27,477 bases of DNA from positions 1-27,477 of the IMG/VR virus record IMGVR_UViG_3300027762_000030. The stretch is one strand, 5' to 3'. The notes under the pieces are model-generated. The model saw only the letters and a list, made by a program, of their open reading frames with translations, did not search any database and had not been told where the DNA came from. Made by a program: the position numbers and the translations under genes. This document shows, piece by piece, positions 876 to 22,682 of this stretch (positions are counted from its first letter, which is position 1; each line of letters begins with the position of its first letter). The stretch is from a virus.

Positions 876-2897
876 TTGACAAACTACACTGCTGCACTGA
901 CGTACGCGCAAAAAGGATGGGCGATATTCCCGGTACACAACATTGCCAACGGACATTGTACGTGTGGGAAAAGTTGTGACAGCCCAGGTAAACACCCGCG
1001 CACAATGCACGGGATCAGCGACGCGACCACAGACACCACCCAGGTTGACAAGTGGTGGCGACAATGGCCGGACGCGAATATCGGGATGGCTACGGGTGCT
1101 GTATCGGGGGTGTGGGTGCTGGACATCGACCCCCGGCATGGCGGGGATGAAAGCCTGGACTTGCTGGAGCAGAAACACGGGCGATTGCAGGCCACCATCG
1201 AGAGCCAGACCGGAGGCGGGGGGCGACATTTGTTTTTCGCCTATGCCCAGGCGGTGAAATCCCGCGCCAACCACCCCGGCCAGGGGATTGACATCCGGGG
1301 GGATGGCGGGTTTGTTGTCCTCCCACCCAGCAATCACATGAGCGGGCGACTGTACGAATGGGAGGCGAGCAGCGAACCGGATGGGAACACTGCCCAGCCT
1401 GCGCCGGAGTGGTTATCCACGTTGATCGGGGGGAAGGATGTGGCAAAGAAGACCGATGCGCCAACCACCAAGAAATACTCCACTGCGGGGGGACGGAATA
1501 CCGCGCTGACTACGATGGCGGGGAGGATGCGCCGGGCGGGGTTGGACGCCAGCGCAATCGAGGCGGCATTGCGGGAGCATAACCGGGTATACTGCGCCCC
1601 GCCTCTGGATGACAGCGAGGTGAGCAAGATCGCCAATAGCGTGGGGCGGTATGCGGCGGGGAGTGTGCCAACCGATGATGAACTGGCGGCGTTGTGGCTG
1701 AAGAACTACCCAGACACCGCCTATGGGTTGGGCGAATTCCGGCGGTATGCGGGGGGATGTTGGCCGATTATCCCGCGTGACCGGGTGGAACTGGAGCTGC
1801 TGCACATCATGGAGGAGGCAAAGCGGGACGGGTATAAGCCAACCTCCTGGAAATTGCGTAGCATCATGGAGATTGCCCGGATCAAAACCAATGTGGAAAT
1901 CGAAAACTGGAATAGCAATAAGGATTTGATCGTATGCAAGAACGGGACATTGCACATCCCGACCATGACATTGATCGCCCACGATAAGAGCCACTACCTG
2001 ACAGCGGGGGTGGCTTATGACTATGACCCGGATGCCACTGCGCCCACCTGGGATTATTACTGCAAGACGATTTTGAATGGCAAAGAGCAATTCCTACAGG
2101 ACTTTGCCGGGTACGCGTTGACGATTGATACCCAGTATGAGCTGGCTGTGTGGCTGTATGGTCCGGCGGGGAGCGGCAAAAGCACCTATATCGAGGGGTT
2201 GCAGGCCATGTTAGGGACACGGGCGGGGCTGCTGGGGCTGAAAGACCTGGAGAAATCCCGCTTTAGTATGACCGACTTGCCGGATAAAACTTTGCTGGTA
2301 AGCACGGAGCAACCGAGTACTTACATGCAGGCCACGGATATTGTCAACGCTTTGATCAGTGGGGAATCGGTGACAGTTGACCGCAAGTTTAGGGATCCAA
2401 TCACCATCCAATCTAATGCTAAAATCTGCTGGGCCATGAATGAACTGCCCCGGGTGGGAGATGGTAGCAATGGGCTATTCCGGCGGGTGAAGGTGGTGGA
2501 GTTTTCCGAACTGCCAGGCGGGGTGCGAAATCCGCATGTCAAGTTGACTATCCGCACAGAGGGGAGCGGGATACTCAACTGGGCATTGGCTGGGTTGATC
2601 CGGCTCCAGGCGAATGGCGGGTTTGACATCCCGCAATCGGTAGTCGATGCCACCAGTCTATTCCAGATGACGAACGACATCCCGGCTGTGTTCGTGGATG
2701 AGTGCTGCATCCGGGGGCGGGAGTTCAGCATTTCGAGCAGCGAGTTATACCGGCAATACCGGACATGGTGCGATGACAACGGGACGAAGGCGCAATCTTC
2801 CGTGTCGATTGCTATGGACTGGCGGAGGTTGGGGTTTACCCGACGTAAGATACCGGCGGGTATGGTGTGGGATGGCTTGAGAATAAAGAGTATTTGA
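876..2897 (+). CDS. Primase-polymerase / SF3 helicase replication protein (prim-pol, PriCT, D5-like)
   Basis: This 673-residue protein joins primer synthesis and DNA unwinding. The N-terminal third is a bifunctional primase-polymerase domain: a CxC...C...GKHP cysteine cluster (28-41), catalytic DID (83-85) and GGGGRH (113-118). A PriCT-like helical segment follows (about 205-262). The C-terminal half is a D5/P4-like superfamily 3 helicase with Walker A GPAGSGKST (429-437), a Walker B-like LLVSTEQ (473-479), a motif C-like MNELP (521-525) and a basic FRRVKVVEF. The end looks like a winged helix. The start is TTG at 876, preceded by AGGGA; the preceding TAG at 852 lies in the same frame, so no longer form is possible without readthrough. 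It probably acts at the repeat/AT-rich block just downstream. A terminator overlaps the stop codon. Confidence 0.93.
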   Translation: MTNYTAALTYAQKGWAIFPVHNIANGHCTCGKSCDSPGKHPRTMHGISDATTDTTQVDKWWRQWPDANIGMATGAVSGVWVLDIDPRHGGDESLDLLEQKHGRLQATIESQTGGGGRHLFFAYAQAVKSRANHPGQGIDIRGDGGFVVLPPSNHMSGRLYEWEASSEPDGNTAQPAPEWLSTLIGGKDVAKKTDAPTTKKYSTAGGRNTALTTMAGRMRRAGLDASAIEAALREHNRVYCAPPLDDSEVSKIANSVGRYAAGSVPTDDELAALWLKNYPDTAYGLGEFRRYAGGCWPIIPRDRVELELLHIMEEAKRDGYKPTSWKLRSIMEIARIKTNVEIENWNSNKDLIVCKNGTLHIPTMTLIAHDKSHYLTAGVAYDYDPDATAPTWDYYCKTILNGKEQFLQDFAGYALTIDTQYELAVWLYGPAGSGKSTYIEGLQAMLGTRAGLLGLKDLEKSRFSMTDLPDKTLLVSTEQPSTYMQATDIVNALISGESVTVDRKFRDPITIQSNAKICWAMNELPRVGDGSNGLFRRVKVVEFSELPGGVRNPHVKLTIRTEGSGILNWALAGLIRLQANGGFDIPQSVVDATSLFQMTNDIPAVFVDECCIRGREFSISSSELYRQYRTWCDDNGTKAQSSVSIAMDWRRLGFTRRKIPAGMVWDGLRIKSI

Positions 2898-2918
2898 CTC
2901 CCCGAAAGGGGAGTTTTT
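2897..2918 (+). terminator. Rho-independent terminator after the primase-helicase gene
   Basis: A perfect 7-bp stem (ACTCCCC / GGGGAGT) closes on a GAAA tetraloop and runs straight into TTTTTA. The first stem base is the last base of the TGA stop codon. It should end the early replication transcript before the origin-like region. Confidence 0.85.
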
Positions 2919-3167: not shown

Positions 3168-3353
3168 TTAGTGGCGACCGGGTTTGGGCCTGTTCTGGAG
3201 GTAGTGATCCAGTCCATCGGAGGGGAGGATCCAATCCCGGCCAACCTTCTGAGCGCCGGGGACATGGCCCGCAGCACAGGCGAAGCGCAGGCCCCGGGGG
3301 GTGATGGTATGTTTTGCGTGGTCACAGGCTTGGGCAATGGTTAGTAGGGTCAT
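3168..3353 (-). CDS. Excisionase-like / MerR-type helix-turn-helix DNA-binding protein
   Basis: This 61-residue protein has the compact winged-HTH pattern of the excisionase/HTH_17 family. An N-terminal helix-turn-helix (LTIAQACDHAKHTITPRGLR) is followed by AAGHVPGAQKVGRDWILPSDGLDHYL, where the G-x-x-P...KVGRDW-I/L-P element is the usual hallmark. The ATG at 3353 has an upstream purine-rich AGAGAG and overlaps the end of the preceding leftward gene by 32 bases, implying coupled translation. It is the last gene before the leftward terminator. Such proteins bend DNA for excision or act as small repressors. No integrase lies in the window, so a regulatory role is as likely as excision. Confidence 0.7.
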   Translation of the reverse strand: MTLLTIAQACDHAKHTITPRGLRFACAAGHVPGAQKVGRDWILPSDGLDHYLQNRPKPGRH

Positions 3354-3492
3354 TGGATTTGCTCTCTTCCAGGGTCAACTGTTTTACAACGGGGGTGGGG
3401 GTAAACTTCTCGTCCTTCACGGTCGGAGCCGTGCCACTGAACAGGGGGAGATCCTCTGTTTGGAACATGGTTTGCTGCTTGGGTTTGTTCAT
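3322..3492 (-). CDS. Small hypothetical phage protein
   Basis: The start at 3492 gives 56 residues beginning MNKPKQQTMFQTEDLPLFSG. It has GAGG about 11 bases upstream and fits 8 bases behind the preceding leftward gene. A longer in-frame reading from 3633 exists but would overlap that gene almost completely. The protein is polar, rich in Thr, Pro and Lys, and probably poorly folded. Its MF-x-x-E-x-LPLFSG opening recalls short phage early proteins, though no named family can be given. It lies inside the leftward operon, so a role in early control or replication is the only contextual hint. Confidence 0.5.
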   Translation of the reverse strand: MNKPKQQTMFQTEDLPLFSGTAPTVKDEKFTPTPVVKQLTLEESKSNDPTNHCPSL

Positions 3493-3499
3493 TGGGTTA

Positions 3500-3709
3500 T
3501 TATCCTCTGTATTTCGGTAGGGTTCGGTAGTATTCTGTGCAATCGTAGCCGGTAGACTTCGGGTTATACGTTCTCGTGCATACTCGGTTAGTGTGAAATG
3601 GCTGTACGTTCGAATGCGCCAGGTTGATTGCATCTTGCCATGATGCGTTATTGATTATCCATCTTCCGCTGAGGTCACTCCATACGCTGTACTTGGTTTG
3701 GTCGTTCAT
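3500..3709 (-). CDS. Small hypothetical protein in the leftward operon
   Basis: This 69-residue product (starting MNDQTKYSVWSDLSGRWII) has a GAGAGAGA purine tract 6-15 bases before its ATG. It is aromatic-rich at the start, polar at the end, and carries two cysteines. It shows no transmembrane segment and no motif that I recognise. The gene is 8 bases upstream of the next leftward start, in keeping with one transcript. Function unknown. Confidence 0.5.
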   Translation of the reverse strand: MNDQTKYSVWSDLSGRWIINNASWQDAINLAHSNVQPFHTNRVCTRTYNPKSTGYDCTEYYRTLPKYRG

Positions 3710-3763
3710 CGTTATCTCTCTCTCTGCGTTTATGCCATGCGCAGCCCGGCGGGTGGGGGGGGG

Positions 3764-4015
3764 TTATAAATTCGACTTGATTTCTTTTTCGAGATCGGTG
3801 ATCTCTTTGAGCGCCCATTCATCAGCCTTGCCAAACCGCTTAACCATATCTTCCGCAGCCATTCGCATGATGTTCAATCGGACATTCAGTATTCGCTGGC
3901 TAAGCCGGGTGCGCTGTGCGCTGGTCATGTTTGAGCCAGGTTTGTCTGCCAGGTATGCCTGGTGGTTGAGTTCTTTCAGGGTATCGCCAAGTTTAATAAA
4001 TGCTGTGTCGGTCAT
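3764..4015 (-). CDS. First gene of the leftward operon; helical hypothetical protein
   Basis: The chosen ATG at 4015 has GGAG nine bases upstream and gives 83 residues. A longer frame from 4090 would cross the promoter and both operators, so it is rejected. The protein is predicted mostly helical, with regularly spaced Leu, Ile and Met and a charged C-terminus (DEWALKEITDLEKEIKSNL) that could form a coiled coil. No HTH motif is evident. As the first gene after a strong promoter with operator palindromes, it could be a regulator or antirepressor, but this rests on position only. A run of nine G (plus strand, 3755-3763) lies immediately after its stop. Confidence 0.55.
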   Translation of the reverse strand: MTDTAFIKLGDTLKELNHQAYLADKPGSNMTSAQRTRLSQRILNVRLNIMRMAAEDMVKRFGKADEWALKEITDLEKEIKSNL

Positions 4016-4054: not shown

Positions 4055-4083
4055 ATAATACCGCACACGGTAATGAATGTCAA
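4055..4083 (-). promoter_or_regulatory. Leftward sigma70-type promoter
   Basis: On the minus strand TTGACA (4083-4078) and TATTAT (4060-4055) are separated by exactly 17 bp. It points at the four-gene leftward operon, about 40 bases before its first ATG. A perfect operator palindrome overlaps the spacer and the end of the -10 box, so repression at this site is expected. Confidence 0.8.
4059..4072. promoter_or_regulatory. Operator palindrome 1 (TACCG-N4-CGGTA)
   Basis: TACCGCACACGGTA has perfect 5-bp arms and sits within the leftward promoter between its -35 and -10 boxes. A second copy lies 34 bp away, centre to centre. A dimeric repressor bound here would block RNA polymerase. Which protein binds is unknown. 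Confidence 0.7.
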
Positions 4084-4092
4084 TAGGCAAAC

Positions 4093-4106
4093 TACCGCAA
4101 ACGGTA
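4093..4106. promoter_or_regulatory. Operator palindrome 2 (TACCG-N4-CGGTA)
   Basis: TACCGCAAACGGTA is the second copy of the operator, differing only in the 4-bp spacer. It lies just upstream of the leftward -35 box and upstream of the rightward promoter, so cooperative binding could set both. A 7-bp direct repeat, CGTTCTA, follows twice at 4120-4126 and 4130-4136 with a 10-bp period. Confidence 0.7.
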
Positions 4107-4148
4107 AACTCTAATCTACCGTTCTAAAACGTTCTACAATAAATCATA

Positions 4149-4196
4149 CTTGTAATTTACAAGTTTATGACTTATAATCCGATTAATATGATAAAT
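4149..4196 (+). promoter_or_regulatory. Rightward promoter with palindromic operators (copy 1)
   Basis: The 15-bp palindrome CTTGTAATTTACAAG (4149-4163) contains a -35 box TTGTAA (4150-4155), 17 bp from a consensus -10 TATAAT (4173-4178). Three bases later comes ATTAATATGATAAAT (4182-4196), a degenerate palindrome covering the expected start of transcription near 4185. The same arrangement with identical spacing recurs at 20546-20593. It drives the metallophosphoesterase, lysis and packaging genes. Because the -10 box lies at 4173, an ATG at 4167 cannot be the translation start from this promoter. Confidence 0.8.
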
Positions 4197-4994
4197 GCGG
4201 GGACGGTGGTACACATCAGTGATCTGCACATTAACAGCACGGTGGCATTATGTCCGCTGGCGGTTGATCTCGACGACGGCGGGACATACCACCCAAGTCG
4301 GGGGCAGCGGTGGCTGTGGGAATGCTGGCAGGATTTCGTGAACCGGGTGACAGCCATTGAGGGGGAGAAGCTGCTCATCATCGGCGGAGATATGGCGGAG
4401 TTGGACACCAAACGGAGAAGCGTCCAGCTCATCAGCGCGAACAAAGCAACGATCATGCGCATGGTGGGGGACGTGTTGGACCCGCTCACCTCCCAGGTGG
4501 GTGGAGTGGTCGTCATCCGGGGGACGCCGGCGCATGTGGGGAAAAGCTCCTGGATTGAGGAAGCGATTGCCAACGACCTGGATCATACCGTTCGGCAGAG
4601 TAAACAGACGGCCAGCTGGTGGCAATTCCGAGCGGTGATCGGCGGGCAGCGTTTTGATGTGGCTCACCACGCCGGGATGAGTGGCCGGGATGTAGCCAGC
4701 CATAAAAGCCCGGTTGATTTGGCGGAGAGGGCGCTCTGGTATTACCGGGTGATGGTGCAGCAACCCGCCCCGCACTGGGTGATCCGCAGCCACAACCACA
4801 GATATCGAGAGGCGGAGATGCACGGATTGAGAGCGGTATTCACCCCATGCTGGACGATGGCAACTGAGAATGTATACCGGTCTGGGAGCGAGTATAGCCT
4901 GGCGGACATTGGCGGGGTGGTCTGGCAAGGTGGAAAGATGAAAGCGACTATCTACCCGGCGGAGATGAAAAAATTTTGGACGCTGAAGATTTGA
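4188..4994 (+). CDS. Calcineurin-like metallophosphoesterase
   Basis: This is a two-metal phosphoesterase of the calcineurin-like superfamily. The signature blocks are in order: SDLH (residues 11-14, the DxH metal ligands), GGD (67-69), RGTPAH (111-116, in place of the usual GNHD/E), DVAHHAG (157-163) and the terminal SHNH (201-204, usually GHxH). The start is uncertain. The open frame extends to 4167, but that codon precedes the promoter -10 box. ATG 4188 would leave only about three leader bases, giving a near-leaderless message, and GTG 4206 is a further alternative. The substrate cannot be told from sequence; phage members include nucleases, phosphatases and nucleotide hydrolases. It is the first gene of the rightward transcript and overlaps the next gene by one base. 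Confidence 0.85.
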   Translation: MINAGTVVHISDLHINSTVALCPLAVDLDDGGTYHPSRGQRWLWECWQDFVNRVTAIEGEKLLIIGGDMAELDTKRRSVQLISANKATIMRMVGDVLDPLTSQVGGVVVIRGTPAHVGKSSWIEEAIANDLDHTVRQSKQTASWWQFRAVIGGQRFDVAHHAGMSGRDVASHKSPVDLAERALWYYRVMVQQPAPHWVIRSHNHRYREAEMHGLRAVFTPCWTMATENVYRSGSEYSLADIGGVVWQGGKMKATIYPAEMKKFWTLKI

Positions 4995-5209
4995 TGGCTG
5001 AAGTATACGCAGCGTTTGGAGCGCCGGAGTTGGGGCCAGGGGAATTTACTGTGAGTATGTACGCCCGGAAATTCGGGTTGACGAAAGACACAGCGAAGGG
5101 CGCAGTCACAAGAGCATTGGAGGCTGGCGTGATTGTGGAAGTGGGAGATCGAATGATAAACGGAACAAGATGTAAGGGATACAGGAGAAAAGCAGATGGA
5201 GACGATTGA
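4994..5209 (+). CDS. Small winged-helix DNA-binding protein
   Basis: A TGATG junction joins this gene to the metallophosphoesterase stop, so translational coupling is likely. A TTG at 4976 would add six residues and is the alternative start. The 71-residue product contains a winged helix: a helix-turn-helix (YARKFGLTKDTAKGAVTRAL) followed by a wing-like VIVEVGDRMINGTRCKGYRR. This resembles the short wHTH proteins found near phage replication and lysis genes. It is a candidate ligand for one of the palindromes upstream, since a dimeric wHTH would suit a 7-1-7 inverted repeat. That pairing is inference only. Confidence 0.6.
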   Translation: MAEVYAAFGAPELGPGEFTVSMYARKFGLTKDTAKGAVTRALEAGVIVEVGDRMINGTRCKGYRRKADGDD

Positions 5210-5564
5210 ATTTGTAAGCAAGCTGGCTCAGGAATTGGCGGTCGCATTGTTACCCGTTTTGGCCGTGTTTCTCATGCGCTGGATCAAGGTGAAGGGGGAT
5301 CAGGTGCTAGCCCGGATCGAGAAAGAGAAGCCCGATCTATTGGGAGAACTCACCTGGATTGCGGGAATTGCGGTTAAGGCGGCAGAGCAGGCGGGGGCAG
5401 CTGGATTTGTCAACGATAAGAAGGTATATGCCGTCGCAGTTGTCCAGGACTATCTCCGATCTAAAAACATTCCAGTGGACTTCGGACTGATCTCCGCAGC
5501 AGTGGAGGCGGCAGTGATGGAAGAATTCAACCAGTGGAAAACACGCCCCACCCCGGAAGAGTAA
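5196..5564 (+). CDS. Phage holin, LL-H family-like
   Basis: The 122-residue protein has one N-terminal transmembrane segment (about residues 13-28, LAVALLPVLAVFLMRW) and a long soluble helical tail. The tail pattern is that of the LL-H holin family: AVKAAEQ, then KKVYAVAVVQDYL, then IPVDFGLISAAVEAAV. Holins assemble in the inner membrane and open it at a set time to release or activate the lytic enzyme. The start has AGGAG upstream and overlaps the previous stop. The next gene is another small membrane-linked protein, which supports a lysis cassette. No adjacent endolysin was recognised. Confidence 0.8.
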   Translation: METIEFVSKLAQELAVALLPVLAVFLMRWIKVKGDQVLARIEKEKPDLLGELTWIAGIAVKAAEQAGAAGFVNDKKVYAVAVVQDYLRSKNIPVDFGLISAAVEAAVMEEFNQWKTRPTPEE

Positions 5565-5569
5565 CCCCG

Positions 5570-5821
5570 ATGGCAGAAGATGACAACGGGAACGGGAGAA
5601 TAACTCTCGCAGTTCTGGGCGCCAAGTTGGATCGGTTGATTGATGATGTGGCGGAGATCAGGCACGGGCAGGATGGATTGATCAAGCAATGTGCTGCTCA
5701 CGAAGAGCGGATCACAGACAACACAGATGAGATCGACCGACTGCGGAATGTGAGTACAGGATGGAGCGCGATCAATTCACTCGGCGCAATTGTGGCTGTA
5801 GTTTTTGGGTTGAAACAATAG
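5570..5821 (+). CDS. XhlA-like coiled-coil membrane protein (lysis cassette)
   Basis: The start at 5570, five bases after the holin stop and preceded by GGAAGAG, gives 83 residues. A reading from 5534 would overlap the holin. A heptad-like amphipathic stretch (about residues 12-60, LGAKLDRLIDDVAEIRHGQ onward) leads into a C-terminal hydrophobic segment (INSLGAIVAVVFGL). This order, coiled coil then one membrane span, is that of the XhlA/hemolysin-type phage proteins that accompany holins. The assignment rests on architecture and neighbours, not on a diagnostic motif. It could equally be an antiholin or a membrane-docking partner for a lysin. Confidence 0.6.
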   Translation: MAEDDNGNGRITLAVLGAKLDRLIDDVAEIRHGQDGLIKQCAAHEERITDNTDEIDRLRNVSTGWSAINSLGAIVAVVFGLKQ

Positions 5822-5838
5822 TTGAGATCATTGGCTGG

Positions 5839-5916
5839 ATGCTGGCGCTGGGCGTGATGATGACCTATGGTCTATTGATGCTCATCCTGGCGATTATCCT
5901 GATAGGTGTACGATGA
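5839..5916 (+). CDS. Tiny transmembrane peptide in the lysis cassette
   Basis: An open frame from ATG 5839 encodes 25 residues, almost all hydrophobic (MLALGVMMTYGLLMLILAII and a short basic end). Its TGA overlaps the ATG of the small terminase as ATGA, the same junction used by many real genes here. GAGAT lies about ten bases upstream. It may be an extra holin-like or antiholin peptide. The frame is also open further upstream without a good start codon, so the N-terminus is uncertain. Confidence 0.4.
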   Translation: MLALGVMMTYGLLMLILAIILIGVR

Positions 5917-6485
5917 GAACAGTTGAGACCAAACTAAACGCTAAACAACTGGTATTCGTTGAAGCCTATCTGCGGACGTTCCAGAAGACGACTGCGGCAA
6001 AAGAGGCTGGCTATTATGGCACAACCCAGGAAGCAACCCGGCTACTCGCATTGCCAAAGGTGCAGGAGTATATCGCCAAACGAATGTCAGAGCTGGCAAT
6101 GCAGGCTGATGAAGCGTTATACCGGCTGGCGGAACAGGCCCGGATGAGCATTGCTGATTTCATCATGGAGGATCCCAACTCCCCCGATGGATTTACCTTG
6201 AACTGGGAAACTATCCGGGCGAGGGGGCATCTCATCAAGAGCATTCGGTCTGGGAGAAGTGGCCCGGTGATTGAACTACACGATGGGCAGAAGGCGCTCG
6301 AATTGATTGGGCGGAATTTGGGATTGTTCGTTGACAAAGTGCAGGTGGATGAGAACCAGAGCGGCGAGATCACAGTGAGGTTTATACCCAGTGGACATCA
6401 AGATCAAATGGTATCCCCAACCGAGGCAGGCCGAACTCTTGAAAGCGGCGGGTCTGATGGGGATACTGGACGGATCGAAGATTGA
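5913..6485 (+). CDS. terS: Terminase small subunit
   Basis: The 190-residue protein begins with the DNA-binding pattern of the terminase small-subunit family (Terminase_2): LNAKQLVFVEAYL, then TTAAKEAGY, then ATRLLALPKVQEYIAKRMSE. The middle is the oligomerisation region, and the polar, Gly/Ser-rich tail is usual. TerS recognises the packaging site and hands DNA to the large subunit. It overlaps the preceding tiny peptide by four bases and the large terminase by 95 bases, so the three are on one message. Confidence 0.88.
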   Translation: MRTVETKLNAKQLVFVEAYLRTFQKTTAAKEAGYYGTTQEATRLLALPKVQEYIAKRMSELAMQADEALYRLAEQARMSIADFIMEDPNSPDGFTLNWETIRARGHLIKSIRSGRSGPVIELHDGQKALELIGRNLGLFVDKVQVDENQSGEITVRFIPSGHQDQMVSPTEAGRTLESGGSDGDTGRIED

Positions 6486-7794
6486 AAAGCCAGTCTCCAG
6501 GCTGATCGGATATGGCGGGGCGGCATTCGGCGGCAAGACCGACGCAGCTATAGGGCTGGCGATGGTGGCCGCGTTTGCATTTCCCGGCGTGAGGATCGGG
6601 TTGTTCCGGCGAAACTTTACTGAATTGGAAGGACCTGACGGGCCAATAGAAAGAAGCCGGGAACTACTCGCGGGGATCACCGAGTACAACGCCGGGCAGC
6701 ACCGACATACATTTCCCACTGGAAGCCGGCTGTACTTCCACCACTGCGCCACCGAGGATGATCGATACAACTACCAGTCACAGGCATGGGACATTCTGCT
6801 GATTGACGAAGCGACCCACTTCACCTGGCCGATTGTTGACTACCTGATCACACGCAACCGACCGACGATAGACCACCCCGACTTGACCCCGTTTGTGGGA
6901 ATGATGACCAACCCCGGCAATGTGGGGCATGAGTGGTATTCGCAACTGTTTGACGTATTGAAAACATCGGGTGGACATCGGCAAGTGAAACGGGTACTGA
7001 CCCCCAATGGAAAGTATGAGCAAAGCTACTTCATCCCCGCCCTGTTGGAAGATAACCCGATTGGGCTGGAGCGTGACCCCGAATATGCCGACCGGTTAGA
7101 AGCCAGAGACCCGGATGTAGCGCGGGCATTGCGTTATGGTGACTGGTCTGTGTTTGCAGGGCAAGCCTTCCCCACCTGGCAGCATAACCGGATCGCCTGT
7201 CCACCGAGGGAGATACCGCTGTGGTGGCCGAAGTGGAGAGCGATTGATTATGGCTATGAACACCCCTGGGCGTGCGGGTGGTTTGCCAAAGACCCGGACA
7301 AGGACCGGCTGTATGTCTACCGGGCAATCAGTTTATCCGGGCTGACAGATGAGCGGCAGATTGCAATGGTCAAAGACAGCACCGCGCCAGAGGAAAATAT
7401 CCTGTTTACGTTTGCCTCCCCCGATATGTGGGAGCGGAAGAATAAAGATGACATTGTTTTCACCACCGCGGATGTGTATGAGAAAGGTGGTGTGGTGTTG
7501 ACCCGGGCCAATAATGACAGGCTGGGTGGCAAGCGGCGATTACATGGGTTGATGCTCGACAAGCCAGACGGGAAGCCGGGGATCCAGGTATTCGAGCCGT
7601 ATTATTCTGTGTTTGGGTGCATGGTCACATTGATCAAAGACCCGAAGAACCCGGAAGATGTGAAGAAAGTGGACGGGGATGACCCCTATGACATGCTGCG
7701 ATATGGGTTGACTAATCTCAATTTGAATGCCGGGCAGCAGGCGGAGAAGCAAAGACAGGTTTCGCCATTGGTAATGGCAGGAGGAATGCTATGA
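6391..7794 (+). CDS. terL: Terminase large subunit (packaging ATPase/nuclease)
   Basis: This 467-residue protein is the DNA-packaging motor. The ATPase half has a variant Walker A GGAAFGGKT (residues 42-50), Walker B ILLIDEATHF (135-144) and a coupling motif TNPGNVGH (173-180). The nuclease half carries the expected acidic residues in AIDYGYEHP (Asp286), SPDMWE (Asp345) and GDDPYDMLRY (about 429-438). The start is GTG at 6391 with GAGG about ten bases upstream, lying 95 bases inside terS in another frame. Length is normal for the family. The Walker A has FGG where most TerL have a GS/RGS type, a recurring variant in some phage groups. The portal is not adjacent: four cargo genes intervene. 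Confidence 0.93.
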   Translation: MDIKIKWYPQPRQAELLKAAGLMGILDGSKIEKPVSRLIGYGGAAFGGKTDAAIGLAMVAAFAFPGVRIGLFRRNFTELEGPDGPIERSRELLAGITEYNAGQHRHTFPTGSRLYFHHCATEDDRYNYQSQAWDILLIDEATHFTWPIVDYLITRNRPTIDHPDLTPFVGMMTNPGNVGHEWYSQLFDVLKTSGGHRQVKRVLTPNGKYEQSYFIPALLEDNPIGLERDPEYADRLEARDPDVARALRYGDWSVFAGQAFPTWQHNRIACPPREIPLWWPKWRAIDYGYEHPWACGWFAKDPDKDRLYVYRAISLSGLTDERQIAMVKDSTAPEENILFTFASPDMWERKNKDDIVFTTADVYEKGGVVLTRANNDRLGGKRRLHGLMLDKPDGKPGIQVFEPYYSVFGCMVTLIKDPKNPEDVKKVDGDDPYDMLRYGLTNLNLNAGQQAEKQRQVSPLVMAGGML

Positions 7795-9261: not shown

Positions 9262-10158
9262 ATGAACCGCCGTGAATTTTTGAAGGCAACGCCAATCATG
9301 GTAGCAGCACCATTCACCCAGTATTTTCCAATAGTCCTTTACCACGCCCCATTTGGCGCACAGATCGAAGGGCGGGTAAAGACCTTTGAGTCTCGGCTGG
9401 CGGAGAATAGAGTATATCAGTGGTCGTTGAAGTGGCGGGATTGGTCGACTTCGCGGGCATTGTACGAAGAGAACGCGGCTACATTGGCGGGGCATCCACA
9501 GATCATCACCATAAAAGTGGTGCCTGAAGAATACAGGTTGTGGCCGGGGTTTGTCGGCTCTCCACCCCGGAAAGATGCTTACCCGGAATTGGCAAAGTTT
9601 GTTCAGGAAATTGTTTACAGGTTCAATCCGGAAACCATTGAACTATTCAACGAACCGAATGTGTTGGTATCGGATGCGTTTGCACCCGAATGTTTTGGAG
9701 CATGGGTTGAAGATGACTGGTATGGTGGTGGCAAGCGGTATGGTGAATGCGTCAAGTATGTTTATGAGCATGTGACCGGGGCCAGACTTTTAGCCGGCGC
9801 GCTGATGATGCACCCGAATAGTATGACATTCTTAAAGGGTGCGTTGGCGGCGGGGATGCGGCCTGATGGTATCAGCTATCACACCTATATCCGGCATGAA
9901 AGCGAATTCGGAAAGTTTATTGAGAATGCCCGGGCAATACGGCAACTGACAAATTTACCACTGACACTCACAGAGACAAGCGTATTAGGTGATGGCAGCC
10001 CGGCTCACATCCAGCGAAAGATAGACTACCTGTATTATCTGCGGGACAACGCTGCTGGATATGTAAACGGATGGAACTGGTACACCATCGGCGGCAATGG
10101 ATGGGAAGATAGTGACCTGGACCCGCAAACAGTTTGGGAGGTATGGAAATCCTTATGA
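9262..10158 (+). CDS. Glycoside hydrolase-like TIM-barrel protein (clan GH-A type) with Tat-like leader
   Basis: The 298-residue protein has the two catalytic signatures of clan GH-A retaining glycosidases: an acid/base motif ELFNEPN (Asn130-Glu131-Pro132) and a nucleophile-type strand LTLTETSVLG (Glu238), separated by about 107 residues as in GH5/GH39-like barrels. Aromatic residues (GISYHTY, NGWNWYTIGG) would line a sugar-binding cleft. The N-terminus MNRREFLKAT matches the twin-arginine consensus (RRxFLK), but the hydrophobic core after it is weak and no clear AxA cleavage site appears. It probably attacks a cell-surface or sheath polysaccharide, for entry or release. A peptidoglycan role is unlikely for this clan but cannot be ruled out. 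Its stop overlaps the portal start. Confidence 0.7.
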   Translation: MNRREFLKATPIMVAAPFTQYFPIVLYHAPFGAQIEGRVKTFESRLAENRVYQWSLKWRDWSTSRALYEENAATLAGHPQIITIKVVPEEYRLWPGFVGSPPRKDAYPELAKFVQEIVYRFNPETIELFNEPNVLVSDAFAPECFGAWVEDDWYGGGKRYGECVKYVYEHVTGARLLAGALMMHPNSMTFLKGALAAGMRPDGISYHTYIRHESEFGKFIENARAIRQLTNLPLTLTETSVLGDGSPAHIQRKIDYLYYLRDNAAGYVNGWNWYTIGGNGWEDSDLDPQTVWEVWKSL

Positions 10159-12742: not shown

Positions 12743-15700
12743 ATGACCTTTCAACCCATTGAGGCAGAGGGAAGCGGGCAATCCGTTTCTATTGAACAAT
12801 TTATTCAGGACTACCAACCCGGCGCAGATGTAGGCAGCGTGATCGAGGGCGGGGCGAACCGCGAATATTGGGCAAAGCCGGAGAACCTGGGGAAGTGGTA
12901 CGAGACAGTATCCAGCATGGCCCCGGATGAAATGGCCCCGGAATGGCTGGACACCGAAGGATTGACCCTGGCTTATGACTACATGAGCCGATTGAACGAC
13001 GGGAAATCCTGGACGGCATGGGACAAGACCCCCGGTGTGGATGACCCGGTATGGGACTTCCTGAAAGCATTATCTATTCCCCCGGAGGATATGGATATTC
13101 AGACCCCCAACCAGGTGGAACAGATCACCGTCCCCGGCGCGGAAACCACCCCAATGCAGGGCAACTACAGCACATTTGGGATGCCACAAGAGCAATGGGA
13201 TAGCCTGTCAACTTTCCAGCAATGGATGACCCGGATATTTAGCACGGGCGCAACTGCCGGCGCAGCTCAGGGAGCAATAGCGGGATTGCAGGGTGGTGTA
13301 CCGGGAGTAATTCTGGGTGGTGTATTGGGTGGAGTATTGGGAAAAGCAACAGACGCCCCCGCCTCCCCCACCTACGCGGGGCAATACCCCGGCGCGGCGC
13401 AGGCATCCGAAACATATTGGGATCCAAATAAGACCAATGTTGTGGTAAAGGCGTTGATGCTATTGAACGTTGGCGCAGAATTCACCAAACGAGTAGGGGG
13501 AATGGCCGGACTTGCTGGACTATCCGCATTGGGATCAACGGAGAAGGCAATCACCGGAGAGACAGGACTACCCCTGATCACCGAATTGATGGACAACCTG
13601 GGGGCGGCGTGGGATGTATCGCAGTTGGCCTACCGGGTATTACCCAATGAGGAAATCCTGAAAGCAGCCGCGACCACCGTCACCCCGCAAGCGTTTGTGG
13701 TCCGGTTTGGCGCAGAGCAGGCGAAAATACTGGCAGAACAATTCGAAAAACTTGGGATGGATATTCCTGATTGGGTGATGGGCGGGATCGAGAAAGCCGC
13801 ACCCTACCTGGAAGGAAACCCGTGGGCGATTGTCGCAGCCAAAAACAAAGGCCAACCGGAAACCGCCTGGACGATGGGAACCACCGAAGTGCGCGAACTG
13901 GCAGAGTCGGAGATGGGATACCAGGCGCTTACCGAGGCGTTTGATCGGGTGGTTGGCGGCGAGAGTATGGAAAGCGTGTTTACCGACTACCAGAAACGGT
14001 ATGGCTTTGAAGGTGAAATGCGGGAGTTATTCGGAACCATGCTGGCAGACCCGCTTAACTTTGCGGGAGTGGGGCTTTCAAAAACGGGGGCGAAGCTGGC
14101 AAAAGCGACCGGCTTTACGGCTGACTTTGTGAACGCATTGGACAGCTCGTCCGGGCTAATTCACGGAATGCGAACGTACAAAGAAGCAGCGAAACTTACC
14201 CAACCCAAAGACATCCACCTGAACAGCATCGAACGGTGGTTATCCCCCTGGACACCCGAAGGGAAAGCGAAGAGCCTGGAGAAGCCGGTTTATAACAACA
14301 AACTGGAAGCAGCCTGGGGCTACATGACCACGTTGGAACCGAAAGCGCGGGCGATTGAAGTGGTGGACGGAATGGGAACGAACCTGACCGGCGTGTTAGA
14401 CCGGGCGGGATATGACCCCGTGACCATGCAGAAGTTTGTGGACGGGATTGCCAACAATGACCCGCGCGTGATTGCTGAAATCGGGATGCGCACATTGGGC
14501 GGGAGTGAAGCCGCAGCCCTGCCGGTTGCATTGCGGGACTGGTCGCCCAAAGGAAAAGCACTGGTGGAAGTGTGGAGCAAGCGGGCATGGTCCAGAGACA
14601 TCCTTGCGAAAGTTGCGAAGGTAAGTGGGCGAAGTATTGATGATGTGTTGAAATCGCTGGACGATGTAAGCGGAAAAGAATCGGACATCCTGGCAAAACA
14701 GTTTGTAGAAGCCGCCCGCCAATCGGGGGATGAAGCTGCAAGTACAATCGTCCAGGCGTTTGATGCAGGCGACTTCAGTGGAAAGACCTTGCAGGACTTT
14801 GCCAAAACGTATTTGAAAGACAAAGCCCCGCTGACTGAGAGCGAATTCATGGGGCGATACTATACCGGCATGATGGATCACATCGAGAAATGGACGGCGG
14901 AATATTTTGGGGTGAAGCCCGACCACTGGACAATCCGCATGAGCAACACCGTGAAGAACGTCCAGGGCATCTTTATGCTGGACGGATCCCCGAATTACCT
15001 GTTTGAAAACGGGATGGATAACATCGTCAAGCTGGCCTATGAAGGTGTATTGGACTTCGATACCAAAGGGCGGCGGGATGCGTTCTGGTCAGAGTTTGGG
15101 GTTAAATCCCCCCGGATGGAAGAGACGTTTATCAGCCGGGAGAAGAACGTCAAAGGCGCAATTGACGAAGCCGGGGTACAGCCCGGAAAACTGGAGGACT
15201 TTAATAAACTGGTACGCTCTGGCCGACGCAGATTCGGGTTATTCTCCAACGCGTCCTCCAAACTGGAAGGGTGGTCAACCGACACGGCCATGTATCATGG
15301 CGTAAGACAGGCGATGAACTACCTGTGGCGACCTGGGAAGGGATTTGACCGGATACCCCCCGGCCTGGAAAGATCGCTGGATGGCATTCAGCCCGGACTG
15401 GCGAAGGTGATCGAGCGCAAGATTGCCAGCGGGGTAAGCAAAGCGCAGATTGAAAAAAGCATCTGGGAAGCAGCCGGAAAAAAGACGGTTGATGAAATCC
15501 TCGGAGAAGCGTCCGAAACCCTGGGCGTGGATGATGCGATGGCGCGGGATGCCATGCAGAAAACCGGGGCGTATGACTACCTGAAAGACAACATCCCGGA
15601 AAATGCCACCGATGCAGACATCGACAAAGCATTTGCAGGACTGGCGAATCACATCTCGGAAAAGATGGACGAATGGACAGACCTGAGAATAAAAGCCGAA

Positions 15701-18700: not shown

Positions 18701-20545
18701 GCGATGCGGGCGATTGATCACCCCGCTTATCTCTCCCAATACAGCCGGATAAGAGACGCCCAGGAGCGGATGAGCAAACAGATGCCCGGGTTCCCGGCGC
18801 GATTGCGCGGCAAGATGTCTATCCCATTCCCGTGGTTGCCGGAAGGGTGGGGGAATACCATCTACGTTGACCCGCTCAAACGGATGTTTAGCTTTGAACA
18901 GATGTTGAATCAGACCATGCGACCACTGCAACAGGATGAAGCCAACCGGATCAGTAAGGCGCAATTCCTGATTCGACAAATGGCGGAAGACGGGCAGATC
19001 ACCCAGGCGCAGATGAGCGAAGCCCTGAACAACAAAGCCGGCCCGATATGGGAGAAAGCCATCACCCAGGCGCAGATGGAAGTGGAAGCGGAGATCGCCA
19101 ACCCGATTGACCTGGTGAACACCATGAGCGGGTTTAGCTGGCCGCTGCAAGTTGCCTACCAGAAAATCATGGGGCGGGAAAGCAAGATCAAAGCCCCGCC
19201 TTCTCTGCAAGCCGTCACCAACATCACCAGCTTTTTTACCCCCGGCGGAGTGAATGCGGGTGGGTGGTTACAGAAAGCCCTCGGCGCGCCGGAGCGCGGG
19301 TTCCTGTTCAATTACTACATCGAACGGGAATTATCGAACATGGTCGCAAACGGGGAAGCGAACATAGAAGAGGTGATGCTGGCAATGGTAGACCAGCAGG
19401 GGGAATTGTGGCAGGAAGCGATGAGCCGGACGGGAAAGCAAGCGGCGGTCAAGTCGTATACTGCCACCCTATCACTTGACTTGTTCCCGGAAGGCGAACA
19501 AGAACAGCGGATACTGCAACAGGAATTCAGCCAGGCGATAGAAAACGGGACAGTGGCAGAATTCTTTGACGCCAACCCGGAATACGAAGCCCGGATGATG
19601 CTCACCAACTGGGACGACCCGGAAGAACGGGTGAAACGCTACCTGATTGGATCCATCTGGGACGCCTACAATGGCCTGAGCGAACTGGAACGACGGGAAG
19701 CGACCGACCAACTGGGAGAACTGTTCCAGGAAGCGTTCCTGAATAAAGAAACCCGCTCTTACGATGCAATTGATTTGGCAACGATCACGGAATGGACGCA
19801 GCTATTAGGCGGCAAAGTGCCAGACACCGCCCCCGCCGTGCCACAAGGGAGTTTGGAACTGCCCGGCCAGGCCGAAAGCGGAGCATACAGCACCTACCTG
19901 GAAACTCGCAAGACACAATTCCCGAATATCGACCTGATCCAGAGCATGTACTACAAACTGCCCCCGGCCATGCAAGATCAGTTCAGACAGAATAACCCCA
20001 TGCTGACCGAATACCAGGAATGGCGGGATATGTTCATCGCAGAAAACCCCGACCTGATCCCGTATATGATCGGAGAAGAGAGCCGCTTATCCGGCGTCCC
20101 GGAAGAAATCTTGACGCAGGTGTACGCATACAAAGGTGAGAAAGCCCAATACTTCCCCAAGATCGGACTGACCCAGGACAAGTATTATTCATTGACCGGG
20201 GCAGCTCGCAAAGCCTACCTGTTGGACCACCCGGAATTACGGCAATACTGGGACTGGCAGAAAGCACGGCTGGCGCAATCACCGGAAATTATCCCCCATG
20301 TCAAGAGCAGCGACACGATAGCAAAGGCAGTATTGGGAGATGACTACACCGCCGGATACCGGGTGGATAGCAACCTGTTCGATGGATATGTCAGCACAGA
20401 ACTATTCGCCCACACCCTGACCGGCAAACCGCTGGGCGAAGGCGCGCGGGCAGAACTCTACTCCCTGTGGAAAAAGGAAAAGAGCGGCCTGCCCTATGAC
20501 GCGTGGTTGGCGCAGGTATTGGAACTATTTTCTTATCAGCAATAA
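12743..20545 (+). CDS. Giant (2600-residue) mosaic virion protein, candidate ejection/polyvalent protein
   Basis: One uninterrupted gene fills 28% of the window. Visible parts: a polar N-terminus; a glycine-zipper membrane-type segment (168-200); helical blocks with FGTMLADPLNFAGVG and a NYLFENGMDNIVKLAYEG pattern; highly charged coiled-coil stretches (about 900-1230); Pro/Glu-rich linkers near 1235, 1350, 1575 and 1790; a compositionally different insert (about 1598-1750); the motif GKPVPAEVLADYPDL at its end; a conserved-looking block with IVFPYQFWFTRSAMEWAMRA and FPWLPEGW; and two related C-terminal repeats (about 2375-2515). Giant proteins with such blocks lie beside portals in phages and are thought to be packaged and injected. 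No catalytic motif was recognised, so its enzymatic status is open. A second promoter begins right after its stop. Confidence 0.8.
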   Translation: MTFQPIEAEGSGQSVSIEQFIQDYQPGADVGSVIEGGANREYWAKPENLGKWYETVSSMAPDEMAPEWLDTEGLTLAYDYMSRLNDGKSWTAWDKTPGVDDPVWDFLKALSIPPEDMDIQTPNQVEQITVPGAETTPMQGNYSTFGMPQEQWDSLSTFQQWMTRIFSTGATAGAAQGAIAGLQGGVPGVILGGVLGGVLGKATDAPASPTYAGQYPGAAQASETYWDPNKTNVVVKALMLLNVGAEFTKRVGGMAGLAGLSALGSTEKAITGETGLPLITELMDNLGAAWDVSQLAYRVLPNEEILKAAATTVTPQAFVVRFGAEQAKILAEQFEKLGMDIPDWVMGGIEKAAPYLEGNPWAIVAAKNKGQPETAWTMGTTEVRELAESEMGYQALTEAFDRVVGGESMESVFTDYQKRYGFEGEMRELFGTMLADPLNFAGVGLSKTGAKLAKATGFTADFVNALDSSSGLIHGMRTYKEAAKLTQPKDIHLNSIERWLSPWTPEGKAKSLEKPVYNNKLEAAWGYMTTLEPKARAIEVVDGMGTNLTGVLDRAGYDPVTMQKFVDGIANNDPRVIAEIGMRTLGGSEAAALPVALRDWSPKGKALVEVWSKRAWSRDILAKVAKVSGRSIDDVLKSLDDVSGKESDILAKQFVEAARQSGDEAASTIVQAFDAGDFSGKTLQDFAKTYLKDKAPLTESEFMGRYYTGMMDHIEKWTAEYFGVKPDHWTIRMSNTVKNVQGIFMLDGSPNYLFENGMDNIVKLAYEGVLDFDTKGRRDAFWSEFGVKSPRMEETFISREKNVKGAIDEAGVQPGKLEDFNKLVRSGRRRFGLFSNASSKLEGWSTDTAMYHGVRQAMNYLWRPGKGFDRIPPGLERSLDGIQPGLAKVIERKIASGVSKAQIEKSIWEAAGKKTVDEILGEASETLGVDDAMARDAMQKTGAYDYLKDNIPENATDADIDKAFAGLANHISEKMDEWTDLRIKAEAEKAANIAKTEGPLGIVDLYDEAALDEATTHIGGYDGWERVYELQDMMTPEEFGRMLKNQRSLSDAAHKRSWKRRRANYVGITEQLGIDGQYAKTLELNLIDQEKNWSEFHKLKWDLWKDAKKSKDTPEWAIVRDEVRAKVRAAFQDATRVELELQRKLDAELVKTLEAWYGPEVSKIAQTWREGVANIREDMTQRMLAHREEVDQIKKPEEKRAAWDKFLTEEYKPAIVERMHQNITGAHEVYKLASAATPKEAPAPIKSAEEIVSTARAEWLEQARADVVVKKHGLTPDEMGTVNQIRQIASEYGLASAKADGSPDPGFDRHLLATVNKYLGTDTSRVADLSPDQVRQAFEERAKAKAPRVEMEAARVVETPAVEPPKSEFAIKREELFDQTRGEMPPEISEAVKAEAEMMLEELKQGEAGKRVFTWVDYQSQPIVTGQPSTNAQWYRDLYFDKKLNKKAVYTALERIIEDKGKDDVRYKNVREVKDLLLDRLINGAESELAGQTPPDPKILTFLGDMEGAADALVQWMDLYEANGTPMPYDEMVKLAGSEEGFARLLDIMDEMQAKKQPPQPEVVVDDSIPFLQTEATQPQVEAERAAEMPEQAAASGSSTKTFSPVYDDYVKPFADRLAESNDLLSIEQLLEMSKGEITNNIKNLQKKYFGDDIEFTERAVFDWAMSQYYRQLFNSIDPHALTSEKFYKLYTPVEIIDGETRIYSREEFPYLVDTFQKYGKKWFIDVNSGKATPMGNYSSEYLNGISADDLFELHAAFVERALSEGKPVPAEVLADYPDLAAKYSQPTPPKVEAPQVEATQPPPIEEVTIEEPITPAPFALLEEPTLEEMAGRIEELERETIQAKVEEWGGEVSETANPNPNPVGDAPPGTVTGLYPQDIGKLFESGWNETIYHLIDTMQGRMKGDTGNAVNLKDANLSPEQVKEVRRYLETQYAKLTDAKLTATRYAKVNRDIALLDYTKRYGADNIAGIVFPYQFWFTRSAMEWAMRAIDHPAYLSQYSRIRDAQERMSKQMPGFPARLRGKMSIPFPWLPEGWGNTIYVDPLKRMFSFEQMLNQTMRPLQQDEANRISKAQFLIRQMAEDGQITQAQMSEALNNKAGPIWEKAITQAQMEVEAEIANPIDLVNTMSGFSWPLQVAYQKIMGRESKIKAPPSLQAVTNITSFFTPGGVNAGGWLQKALGAPERGFLFNYYIERELSNMVANGEANIEEVMLAMVDQQGELWQEAMSRTGKQAAVKSYTATLSLDLFPEGEQEQRILQQEFSQAIENGTVAEFFDANPEYEARMMLTNWDDPEERVKRYLIGSIWDAYNGLSELERREATDQLGELFQEAFLNKETRSYDAIDLATITEWTQLLGGKVPDTAPAVPQGSLELPGQAESGAYSTYLETRKTQFPNIDLIQSMYYKLPPAMQDQFRQNNPMLTEYQEWRDMFIAENPDLIPYMIGEESRLSGVPEEILTQVYAYKGEKAQYFPKIGLTQDKYYSLTGAARKAYLLDHPELRQYWDWQKARLAQSPEIIPHVKSSDTIAKAVLGDDYTAGYRVDSNLFDGYVSTELFAHTLTGKPLGEGARAELYSLWKKEKSGLPYDAWLAQVLELFSYQQ
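18543..18572 (+). repeat. Perfect 15-bp tandem duplication inside the giant gene
   Basis: ACGCCAAACTGACAG occurs twice in direct succession, adding the residues AKLTD/AKLTA in frame. It is a recent in-frame slippage or duplication within the C-terminal half of the giant protein. Confidence 0.8.
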
Positions 20546-20593
20546 CTTGTAATTTACAAGCGATTGTTGTATAATAGCATTAATCTGATTAAT
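20546..20593 (+). promoter_or_regulatory. Capsid-operon promoter with palindromic operators (copy 2)
   Basis: CTTGTAATTTACAAG (20546-20560) is identical to the palindrome at 4149. Inside it is a -35 box TTGTAA, 17 bp from TATAAT (20570-20575). Three bases later comes a second perfect palindrome, ATTAATCTGATTAAT (20579-20593), centred 33 bp from the first. Transcription should begin near 20582, leaving a 28-base leader with AAGGAGG (20600-20606). It sits directly after the stop of the giant gene and would give the scaffold and capsid genes their own, stronger supply of message. Confidence 0.85.
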
Positions 20594-20609: not shown

Positions 20610-21251
20610 ATGGAAGGGCAAGAATTGAAAGTTGTTGCACCGCCCGCAGGCCAAACGGGTACTCCCCCGGCAACGGGACAGAGCGAGGCTGCAACTCAAC
20701 CGACAGTCACCCGTGATGAAGTCTTAAAACTGGTGGGAGAAGCAGAAGAAAAAGCATTCCGCCGGGCGCAAGGTCTGATCACAAAAACAAACACACGCAT
20801 TCGGAGCGAGGTAACAAAACTTGAACAGCAGCTTACCAAAGCAGGCGTGACGCTGGATGGAAATCAGAAAGCGGCGCTGGAGCAGCAAGTTACTGACCAG
20901 GTTCTTACCGAGGAAAACTCAGCGGCGGGGGAAGGCCAACCACCGTCCACACTGACAGACCCCTCATTGGTCGATCCGATTACCAAAGTGGCGCAGCAAA
21001 TGATGGATGAGGCTGGGGTGGTCATCTACGATAATGACCCGGAAGCGAAACTCATTGACATGAGCGACCCCTACAAATTCCTCAAATCATTGCCGGCTGC
21101 CATTGAAGTCAAGAAAGCGCGTGAAAAATCCCCCGTGAAAGATGCGACCAGCACCCCCGGATTATCTGGGGCGGGCGGGCCGACATCACCATACTCAGGC
21201 AAAAGCGGGTTGGACCTGATATCTGAACATTTCAGATCGAAAGGTCTCTGA
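20610..21251 (+). CDS. Scaffolding-like protein
   Basis: The 213-residue protein precedes the major capsid gene and starts after a near-perfect Shine-Dalgarno (AAGGAGG). It has a Pro/Gly/Thr-rich disordered N-terminus, a central charged helical region suited to a coiled coil (DEVLKLVGEAEEKAFRRAQG, IRSEVTKLEQQLTKAG), an acidic middle and a Ser/Gly-rich tail ending in a basic helix (DLISEHFRSKGL). High polarity, a helical core and a short basic C-terminal helix upstream of the capsid gene are the usual signs of a scaffold that guides capsid assembly. No diagnostic sequence motif exists, so the call rests on architecture and position. Confidence 0.7.
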   Translation: MEGQELKVVAPPAGQTGTPPATGQSEAATQPTVTRDEVLKLVGEAEEKAFRRAQGLITKTNTRIRSEVTKLEQQLTKAGVTLDGNQKAALEQQVTDQVLTEENSAAGEGQPPSTLTDPSLVDPITKVAQQMMDEAGVVIYDNDPEAKLIDMSDPYKFLKSLPAAIEVKKAREKSPVKDATSTPGLSGAGGPTSPYSGKSGLDLISEHFRSKGL

Positions 21252-21276
21252 CCCTTAACCAACGGAGGGTAACAAC

Positions 21277-22257
21277 ATGGCATATACTTTAGCCGATTAC
21301 GCACGACTGGCGGAATCTCCGCTGAAGGCGGGCGTGATTGACATTCTGCGGATGGCATCGCCCATCCTGGACAGCCTTTCATTCAGTGACGAAGGCACGC
21401 TTGACATTGAACTCTTGCGCACCAAGAGCCTGCCGACCGTGTACAGCCGCAAAATTGGCGGCACGTTCACCGAGAGCAAAGGCCAGATTGAACCGGTGAA
21501 AGACCGGATCATCAACTTCGGTGGATACATCGACATCGACAAGACCCTGATGAAAGCCAAAACGCAGGTGGATCAGAAGGCGCTGCAAGTCTCGATGTTC
21601 ACCAAGGCCATGGGCGCGTATTTCAACAACGTCTTCTTCAACGGCACACCGACCAGCGATTACGACTCTTTAACCGGGTTGTGGTATCGACTGGTCAACT
21701 ACCTGCCCTCGGCGCAGTCTATTGCAGCCGGGAGTATTGACATCTCCCCGGACAGCGCAACCCTGGCGGCTGACAAAATCAAACTGGTCGATTACGTCCA
21801 TCAACTGATGGATGTCACCGGTCACGGCGATGGCGGGCCGGATATTCTCTATATGGGGCGCACCCTGAAACTGCGCTTTGAATCGGCCATGCGCCAATCC
21901 GGCATGTTGGGAACCACGACCGACAGCTATGGTCGCACGTTTGCCACGTTTGGCGAAGGCGGCCCGAAGATCATGGAAGCGGGGGTAACTGACCCGCTGG
22001 ATTTGACCGCCCAGGTGTTGGGTGTGGCTGAATTGGCTGATGGAACTGCTCTTACCGGCGGAGCATGTAGCTCGATTTACTCCGTAAAATACGGCGGAGA
22101 ATACGTTAACGGTTTCCAGGTCTACCCGATTGATGTTCAGGACATCGGCCTGCTGCAAGCTGGGAACGCCTACCGGGTGACGATTGACTGGACGCCCGGC
22201 ATCTACATGGTCTCGCCGTTCTCGGTTGGCCGCATTCATGGCATCGTGGCCGCGTAA
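21277..22257 (+). CDS. Major capsid protein (HK97-fold type)
   Basis: The 326-residue product begins MAYTLADYARLAES with CGGAGGG upstream. It has an N-terminal arm and helix, then a TVYSRKIGGTFTESKGQIEP segment like the E-loop and a long P-domain helix region (KALQVSMFTKAMGAYFNNVF). A late Gly-rich A-domain (GGEYVNGFQVYPIDVQD) leads to a C-terminal beta strand with TIDWTPGIYMVSPFSVGRI. This order, its length and the upstream scaffold fit HK97-fold capsid proteins, whose fold is conserved while sequence is not. It should be the most abundant virion protein. The next gene follows within ten bases. Confidence 0.83.
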   Translation: MAYTLADYARLAESPLKAGVIDILRMASPILDSLSFSDEGTLDIELLRTKSLPTVYSRKIGGTFTESKGQIEPVKDRIINFGGYIDIDKTLMKAKTQVDQKALQVSMFTKAMGAYFNNVFFNGTPTSDYDSLTGLWYRLVNYLPSAQSIAAGSIDISPDSATLAADKIKLVDYVHQLMDVTGHGDGGPDILYMGRTLKLRFESAMRQSGMLGTTTDSYGRTFATFGEGGPKIMEAGVTDPLDLTAQVLGVAELADGTALTGGACSSIYSVKYGGEYVNGFQVYPIDVQDIGLLQAGNAYRVTIDWTPGIYMVSPFSVGRIHGIVAA

Positions 22258-22267
22258 GGAGGATGAA

Positions 22268-22624
22268 ATGTTAGATGCAAATCTCGTGCTTAAAACCTCT
22301 GGAGCGCAAACCTCCAGCGTCACCAGCGCAACCGGCGTTGATTTCGGCGGAGCGGATGTCAACCCGATCACGTATGTGTTGAACTGCACCACCCTCACCG
22401 GCGCAACTGGAACGTTAGCCGTCAAAATCCAGGAGAGCGACAACAACTCGACCTGGCGGGACTTTGTTAGCTTCCCGACCCTGACCACTGCCGCGGGGAT
22501 CCACCGCGTGACGGGCAAATCTGACGCCCGCTATCGCCGGTACTACTCCACCCTGGCTGGCACATCGCCCAACTTCACCTACTCGGTTTACCCTGAACTT
22601 GGCGGCGAATATACCAAGTTCTAA
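22268..22624 (+). CDS. Capsid decoration-like small beta protein
   Basis: AAGGAGG precedes ATG 22268 by five bases; a longer frame from 22184 would lie inside the capsid gene and is rejected. The 118-residue protein is beta-rich with many Thr and Ser. Its centre (TGTLAVKIQESDNNSTWRDF, then SDARYRRYYSTLAGTSPNF) has the pattern of small phage beta-sandwich proteins found immediately after capsid genes. These often bind the outside of the head as decoration or cement. A terminator follows, so it closes the capsid operon. Confidence 0.65.
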   Translation: MLDANLVLKTSGAQTSSVTSATGVDFGGADVNPITYVLNCTTLTGATGTLAVKIQESDNNSTWRDFVSFPTLTTAAGIHRVTGKSDARYRRYYSTLAGTSPNFTYSVYPELGGEYTKF

Positions 22625-22650
22625 GACGGGGTAGATCACTTATTACCCAG

Positions 22651-22682
22651 GCCCGCCTGCTATCTAGTGGGCGGGCTATTTT
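22651..22682 (+). terminator. Terminator closing the capsid operon
   Basis: The arms GCCCGCC (22651-22657) and GGCGGGC (22670-22676) are perfect complements around a 12-base loop, followed by TATTTT. It lies 27 bases after the decoration-like gene and isolates the scaffold-capsid unit, which begins at the promoter near 20550. Confidence 0.8.

Follow-up and report, generated by a model that had tools for sequence, protein, structure and literature searches.

The two late promoters of an uncultivated temperate phage share a palindrome over their -35 boxes, and we propose, with slightly better than even confidence, that a repressor encoded in the phage's own immunity region would bind it as operator and silence the early promoter and both late promoters directly. 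The window, the whole stretch of DNA that was analyzed, is a virus record of 27,477 bases. The same phage is represented by the IMG/VR contig IMGVR_UViG_3300009037_000010 (42,284 bases), whose proteins are identical to those of the window and which matches both window ends exactly. Because this contig carries a 123-bp repeat at both ends, its map closes into a circle of 42,161 bp. The part of the genome outside the window encodes a tyrosine integrase, a CI-like XRE protein and an Arc-like RHH protein. The phage is judged temperate from the integrase and from the XRE protein, which matches phage repressor families, and a repressor-like gene and an integrase, the expected companions of a CI-type operator, thus lie within one genome. 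The integrase gene is adjoined by the 3' end of what by eye is a tRNA-Pro(GGG) gene (L033, reverse complement, about 2715-2770); this end is probably the attachment site (attP) and could serve to identify the host.

The 15-bp palindrome CTTGTAATTTACAAG is identical at 4149-4163 and 20546-20560, as the initial annotation had reported, and copy 1 is longer, a perfect 17-bp palindrome (Table 1). In both copies, TATAAT follows 9 bp past the palindrome (4173-4178 and 20570-20575), and the -35 TTGTAA lies within the palindrome, 17 bp upstream of the -10, again in agreement with that annotation. A full-genome search for the composite CTTGTAATTTACAAG-N9-TATAAT-N3-ATTAAT, which it had suggested, returned exactly two sites in the whole 42-kb genome, those starting at 4149 and 20546. 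With up to three mismatches allowed, the window holds five matches against 0.57 expected, a number reached by none of 100 shuffles; the five are the two sites, each on both strands, and one site with three mismatches.

Could late promoters P1 and P2 be recent duplicates of one segment, without a common regulator? Just two strong copies exist, as such an origin would predict. However, the 9-bp spacers TTTATGACT and CGATTGTTG between palindrome and TATAAT, described earlier as completely different, are alike at 2/9 positions, which is the chance level, and the flanks are unlike. Furthermore, relatives keep the promoter pair with other sequences, which already contradicts a duplication and makes it highly improbable. 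Promoter P1 is the best genome-wide match to promoter P2 (38/62 positions, against 32 for the next), and this rank and the pair kept by relatives uphold the earlier view that the common bases were selected rather than recently duplicated.

Table 1. Features of the late promoters, their transcription units and the immunity region (window positions unless L033 is given).
Feature	Position	Strand	Remarks
Operator-like perfect 17-bp palindrome ACTTGTAATTTACAAGT at late promoter P1	4148..4164	.	Covers -35 box; best 17-mer of closed genome
Operator-like palindrome ACTTGTAATTTACAAGC at late promoter P2, 15-bp perfect core	20545..20561	.	Second-best 17-mer of closed genome
Late promoter P1, TTGTAA-17-TATAAT	4150..4178	+	Drives phosphoesterase/HTH/holin/terminase unit; upstream genes leftward, terminators facing
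Late promoter P2, TTGTAA-17-TATAAT	20547..20575	+	Drives scaffold/capsid unit; relatives have promoter at same place
Conserved -10/start-region element TATAATnnnATTAATnnnATAAAT of promoter P1	4173..4196	+	Downstream part has 13/15 bases in common with promoter P2
Conserved -10/start-region element TATAATnnnATTAATnnnATTAAT of promoter P2	20570..20593	+	
Terminator-like hairpin 3' of primase gene	2896..2915	+	Separates early genes from promoter P1
First gene of P1 unit, metallophosphoesterase-like	4167..4994	+	Weak Metallophos match, below cut-off
Holin (5196-5564), small ORF, terminase small (5913-6485) and large subunit (6391-7794)	5196..7794	+	
P2 unit: scaffold-like gene, major capsid protein (21277-22257), small protein (about 22220-22624)	20610..22624	+	Scaffold by position only
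Strong terminator-like hairpin closing P2 unit (scaffold/capsid/small protein)	22650..22677	+	
CI-like XRE protein, 114 aa, read leftward	L033 11738-12082	+	Matches to phage repressor families
Arc-like RHH protein, 56 aa, first gene of rightward early operon	L033 11464-11634	-	Weak RHH match

Promoters P1 and P2 each agree with the sigma-70 consensus at 10/12 bases with 17-bp spacing and are thus expected to work without an activator. Early rightward transcription appears to stop at the terminator that follows the primase gene, and a terminator facing it (3162-3142) closes the leftward genes (3168-4015); the holin and terminase genes therefore need a promoter of their own, which is promoter P1. 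The ATG at 4167 falls inside this promoter, so the real start of the first gene is probably ATG 4188 or GTG 4206. Promoter P2 sits between a 2600-aa gene and the scaffold-like gene, and GC hairpins occupy the place corresponding to the end of the P2 unit in G005, G006, G008, G012 and G013. The 2600-aa gene (12743-20545, between the portal and scaffold genes) takes up nearly a fifth of the 42-kb genome, and its versions in relatives run to 1800-3000 aa. A 298-aa glycosidase-like ORF with a signal-like start, as judged by eye, is located between the terminase and portal genes (9262-10158). At 4055-4107, a divergent leftward promoter (TTGACA 4083-4078, TATTAT 4060-4055) carries two different palindromes, TACCGCACACGGTAA (4059-4073) and TACCGCAAACGGTAA (4093-4107), 34 bp apart, which form a putative second operator family facing promoter P1. 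In this connection, G003 carries TTTACCGCAAGCGGTAAA inside a gene.

Past the -10, ATTAATATGATAAAT (4182-4196) and ATTAATCTGATTAAT (20579-20593) are identical at 13/15 bases. The initial annotation had described a second, ATTAAT-rich palindrome here; the shared bases hold, but the palindrome is good in copy 2 only, and copy 1 pairs at just 5/7 arm positions. The perfect TAATCNGATTA lies at 4175-4185 in copy 1 and at 20581-20591 in copy 2, so that, measured from the -10, it sits 9 bp farther upstream in copy 1. The common part is better given as TATAATnnnATTAATnnnATWAAT, with a 9-bp period in both copies, and may thus be a start-region element or a tandem site rather than another operator like the first. 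Its reading as a further copy of that operator was rejected because the half-site (ACTTGTAA versus ATTAATC) and the register differ, the latter also between the two copies, and the paired operators 33 bp apart that had been proposed for one regulator fall for the same reasons. What survives of the proposal that one regulator coordinates the lysis/packaging and capsid transcripts is the single control element common to both promoters. The conserved ATTAAT element is not explained by the repressor proposed here, which counts against it. MerR-type activated promoters carry their palindrome in an over-long spacer of 19-20 bp, and MerR-type control was rejected on the basis of the 17-bp spacer at both promoters.

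Which protein would bind the palindrome? Every 17-mer of the closed genome was ranked against ACTTGTAANTTACAAGT. The best one after those of promoters P1 and P2 is ACTTGTAGATAACGAGT (13/16; L033 11660-11676), which lies in the XRE/RHH intergenic region and starts one base past the -10 of an early promoter (TTGACA-17-TATATT). The octamer ACTTGTAA occurs genome-wide only at the two late promoters and in the XRE/RHH region, and 4 of the 19 ACTTGT hexamers of the genome fall within 56 bp of that region, forming the densest cluster in the genome. When the region was shuffled 3000 times, 0.6% of the shuffled sequences equalled the best match, and none reached the four hexamers. These ranks are genome-wide and thus independent of a prior choice of region, although each site is degenerate. 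The -35 of the early promoter falls within CTTGACAAGTCACAAG, which was given no weight because it is largely the -35 consensus itself. As in a CI-type system, the same site, in degenerate form, recurs in the divergent immunity region, and the sites overlap core promoter elements, covering the -35 at promoters P1 and P2 and lying just past the -10 at the early promoter. The immunity-region sites, with 13/16 at best, have another layout than the late-promoter sites, which counts against the proposed immunity-region repressor.

The XRE protein is the likeliest candidate binder and the RHH protein the second. The former is favored by the long dyad and by the TQQ that its helix has in common with the 434 repressor, to which it aligns with weak overall similarity (E 0.26). 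In the 434 repressor, glutamines read the outer A-C of the half-site; the half-site of the palindrome likewise begins A-C, and we treat this possible correspondence as a lead. A structure of the XRE protein predicted without an alignment was poor (mean pLDDT 57). In IMG/VR, XRE homologues were found only in this phage, and no RHH homologue was found either. The wHTH protein (4976-5209), which the initial annotation had suggested as a binder, gave no family match and is a weaker candidate than the immunity-region regulators.

From the computed sites, their genome-wide rank, the layout of the transcription units and the conserved pair in relatives, we infer a binding protein, its repressive action and its timing. 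The repressor's targets would be degenerate sites at the divergent early promoters together with its two best sites, which lie on the late promoters; there, an operator covering the -35 box would block RNA polymerase. In the lysogen, the early, lysis/packaging and capsid genes would all be held off directly. Induction would release the two late promoters together, both of them good sigma-70 promoters; promoter P1 would then serve the holin/terminase unit, and promoter P2 would boost synthesis of the abundant scaffold and capsid proteins. The simplest reading of a site that covers the -35 of self-sufficient promoters and is common to them and the immunity region is a repressor operator, and the confinement of the element to this phage is as expected for immunity-specific operators.

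However, late genes of most temperate phages are under an activator or antiterminator rather than directly under the immunity repressor, which counts against our proposal. The palindrome could instead be the site of a dedicated late-gene activator encoded in the early operon, in the manner of the ArpU/RinA/Ltr-type or P2 Ogr-type activators of other phages, and its likeness to the immunity region would then be partly chance or autoregulation. Late timing normally needs an activator. Nevertheless, we consider an activator unlikely because the weak or absent -35 of RinA/ArpU/Ogr-type promoters, where the activator site replaces it or lies upstream, is not what promoters P1 and P2 present: both keep an intact -35 and the 17-bp spacing, with the palindrome on the -35 and not upstream. 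Moreover, the same half-sites occur in the immunity region, and no ArpU/RinA/Ogr-like protein was recognized among the proteins searched, several early proteins being without a family.

A capsid profile search yielded about a dozen related contigs, and the same search of genome contigs found no relatives. The palindrome, at up to two mismatches, is absent from every related contig found by the capsid profile. The initial annotation had treated absence from related phages as evidence against its motif; the absence is real, yet relatives carry their own common element on the same two promoters. Across all IMG/VR, the composite motif occurs in this phage only, and a literature search on the palindrome returned no paper. 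The motif does have eight matches in 84,980 bacterial and archaeal genomes, and such bacterial occurrences, together with phage binders that are so far candidates from sequence only, would suit the site of a host regulator through which the phage senses cell state. We find this improbable, since the eight matches precede unrelated genes in mostly AT-rich genomes and look like chance, at about the number that base composition would give, and since the element is in no related phage.

Most relatives with sequence 5' of the scaffold gene have a promoter there; in G003 and G011 other sequence occupies the corresponding place, and no scaffold promoter was found there. Both regions are present in this phage, G006, G013, G008 and G012, of which G006 and G013 are close, and for each of them a 54-base segment spanning the scaffold promoter was aligned with every 300-base window on both strands. 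In 5/5 genomes (this phage and four relatives at 43-49% capsid identity), the best window was located upstream of the terminase operon. The elements of the pair differ, being CTTGTAATTTACAAG here, CTTGYAAAATAA-GACAATT in G006 and G013, and GGWAGAAAMAA in G008 and G012, where it stands close before the -10, with tandem copies upstream of the terminase promoter. Judged from these alignments, the late promoter pair is conserved, and its presumed control element is lineage-specific. In G006, moreover, the palindrome CTTGACAACTNNTGTCATA covers the -35 of four promoters (37207, 39421, 44353 and 46311; L055-L057, contig oriented with capsid +), a putative separate regulon within its early genes. A sequence resembling this palindrome, TGACATCCTATGTCA, lies upstream of the terminase promoter in G006 and G013. 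The G008 terminase promoter has four tandem copies of about AATAAATGGAAGAAAAAA, 22-25 bp apart, up to the -10 (L058 3104-3225), and this array looks like a set of activator sites.

The same two late promoters lack a -35 in G008 and G012 and therefore look activator-dependent, and the tandem sites before their -10 resemble activation, which lends support to an activator in the present phage as well. Repression is thus not the rule of the group, a further point against the repressor that we favor. We tentatively suggest that in this little-known phage group the two late promoters stayed fixed while their control was swapped wholesale, one lineage being wired directly to the immunity repressor, whose lysogeny control would thereby extend to capsid genes without a late activator or antiterminator, and sister lineages to tandem activator-like sites. 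Few phages, mostly those of cultured hosts, have had their late-gene control worked out in detail, and here a compact three-region regulon of an uncultivated temperate phage was read from its sequence alone. If confirmed, it would represent natural rewiring between repressor-only and activator-type late control.

The proposed system resembles several known ones. In mycobacteriophage L5 and Cluster A, a single immunity repressor is believed to have multiple sites of action in the genome, and the site sequence varies between related phages along with immunity type (PMC6550527, PMC9283540). The multi-place action proposed here and the lineage-specific site are similar. However, L5 sites are asymmetric, number about 30 per genome, lie mostly outside promoters and are oriented with transcription, whereas this phage has two strong symmetric sites exactly on late promoters and a weak immunity-region cluster; an L5-type stoperator system was rejected on these features. 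The C1 lysogeny repressor of phage P1 acts on operators at scattered promoters by direct repression (PMC8198154). Dispersed operators and direct repression would be shared, but the late genes of phage P1 also need the activator Lpa, and none such was recognized here. The C1 sites are asymmetric. Like 434 and lambda CI (HTH_3/XRE), the present candidate is encoded by a small HTH repressor gene divergent from the early operon, with symmetric operators, and TQQ stands in both the 434 and the XRE helix; it differs in its 114-aa length and weak similarity. In lambdoid phages, late genes are under Q antitermination and not under CI operators on late promoters. The ArpU/RinA/Ltr late activators of Firmicutes phages are phage regulators on the promoter of packaging/assembly genes (PMC13123087). 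A phage regulator at such a promoter, here a candidate only, would be common to both; the present phage differs in that no such activator was recognized among the proteins searched and the -35 is intact, and G008 and G012 fit that mode better. Multi-site repression is thus already known; the present case would be a variant of it that differs in having its two best symmetric sites on late promoters, and it adds a clear case of a conserved promoter place with replaced control.
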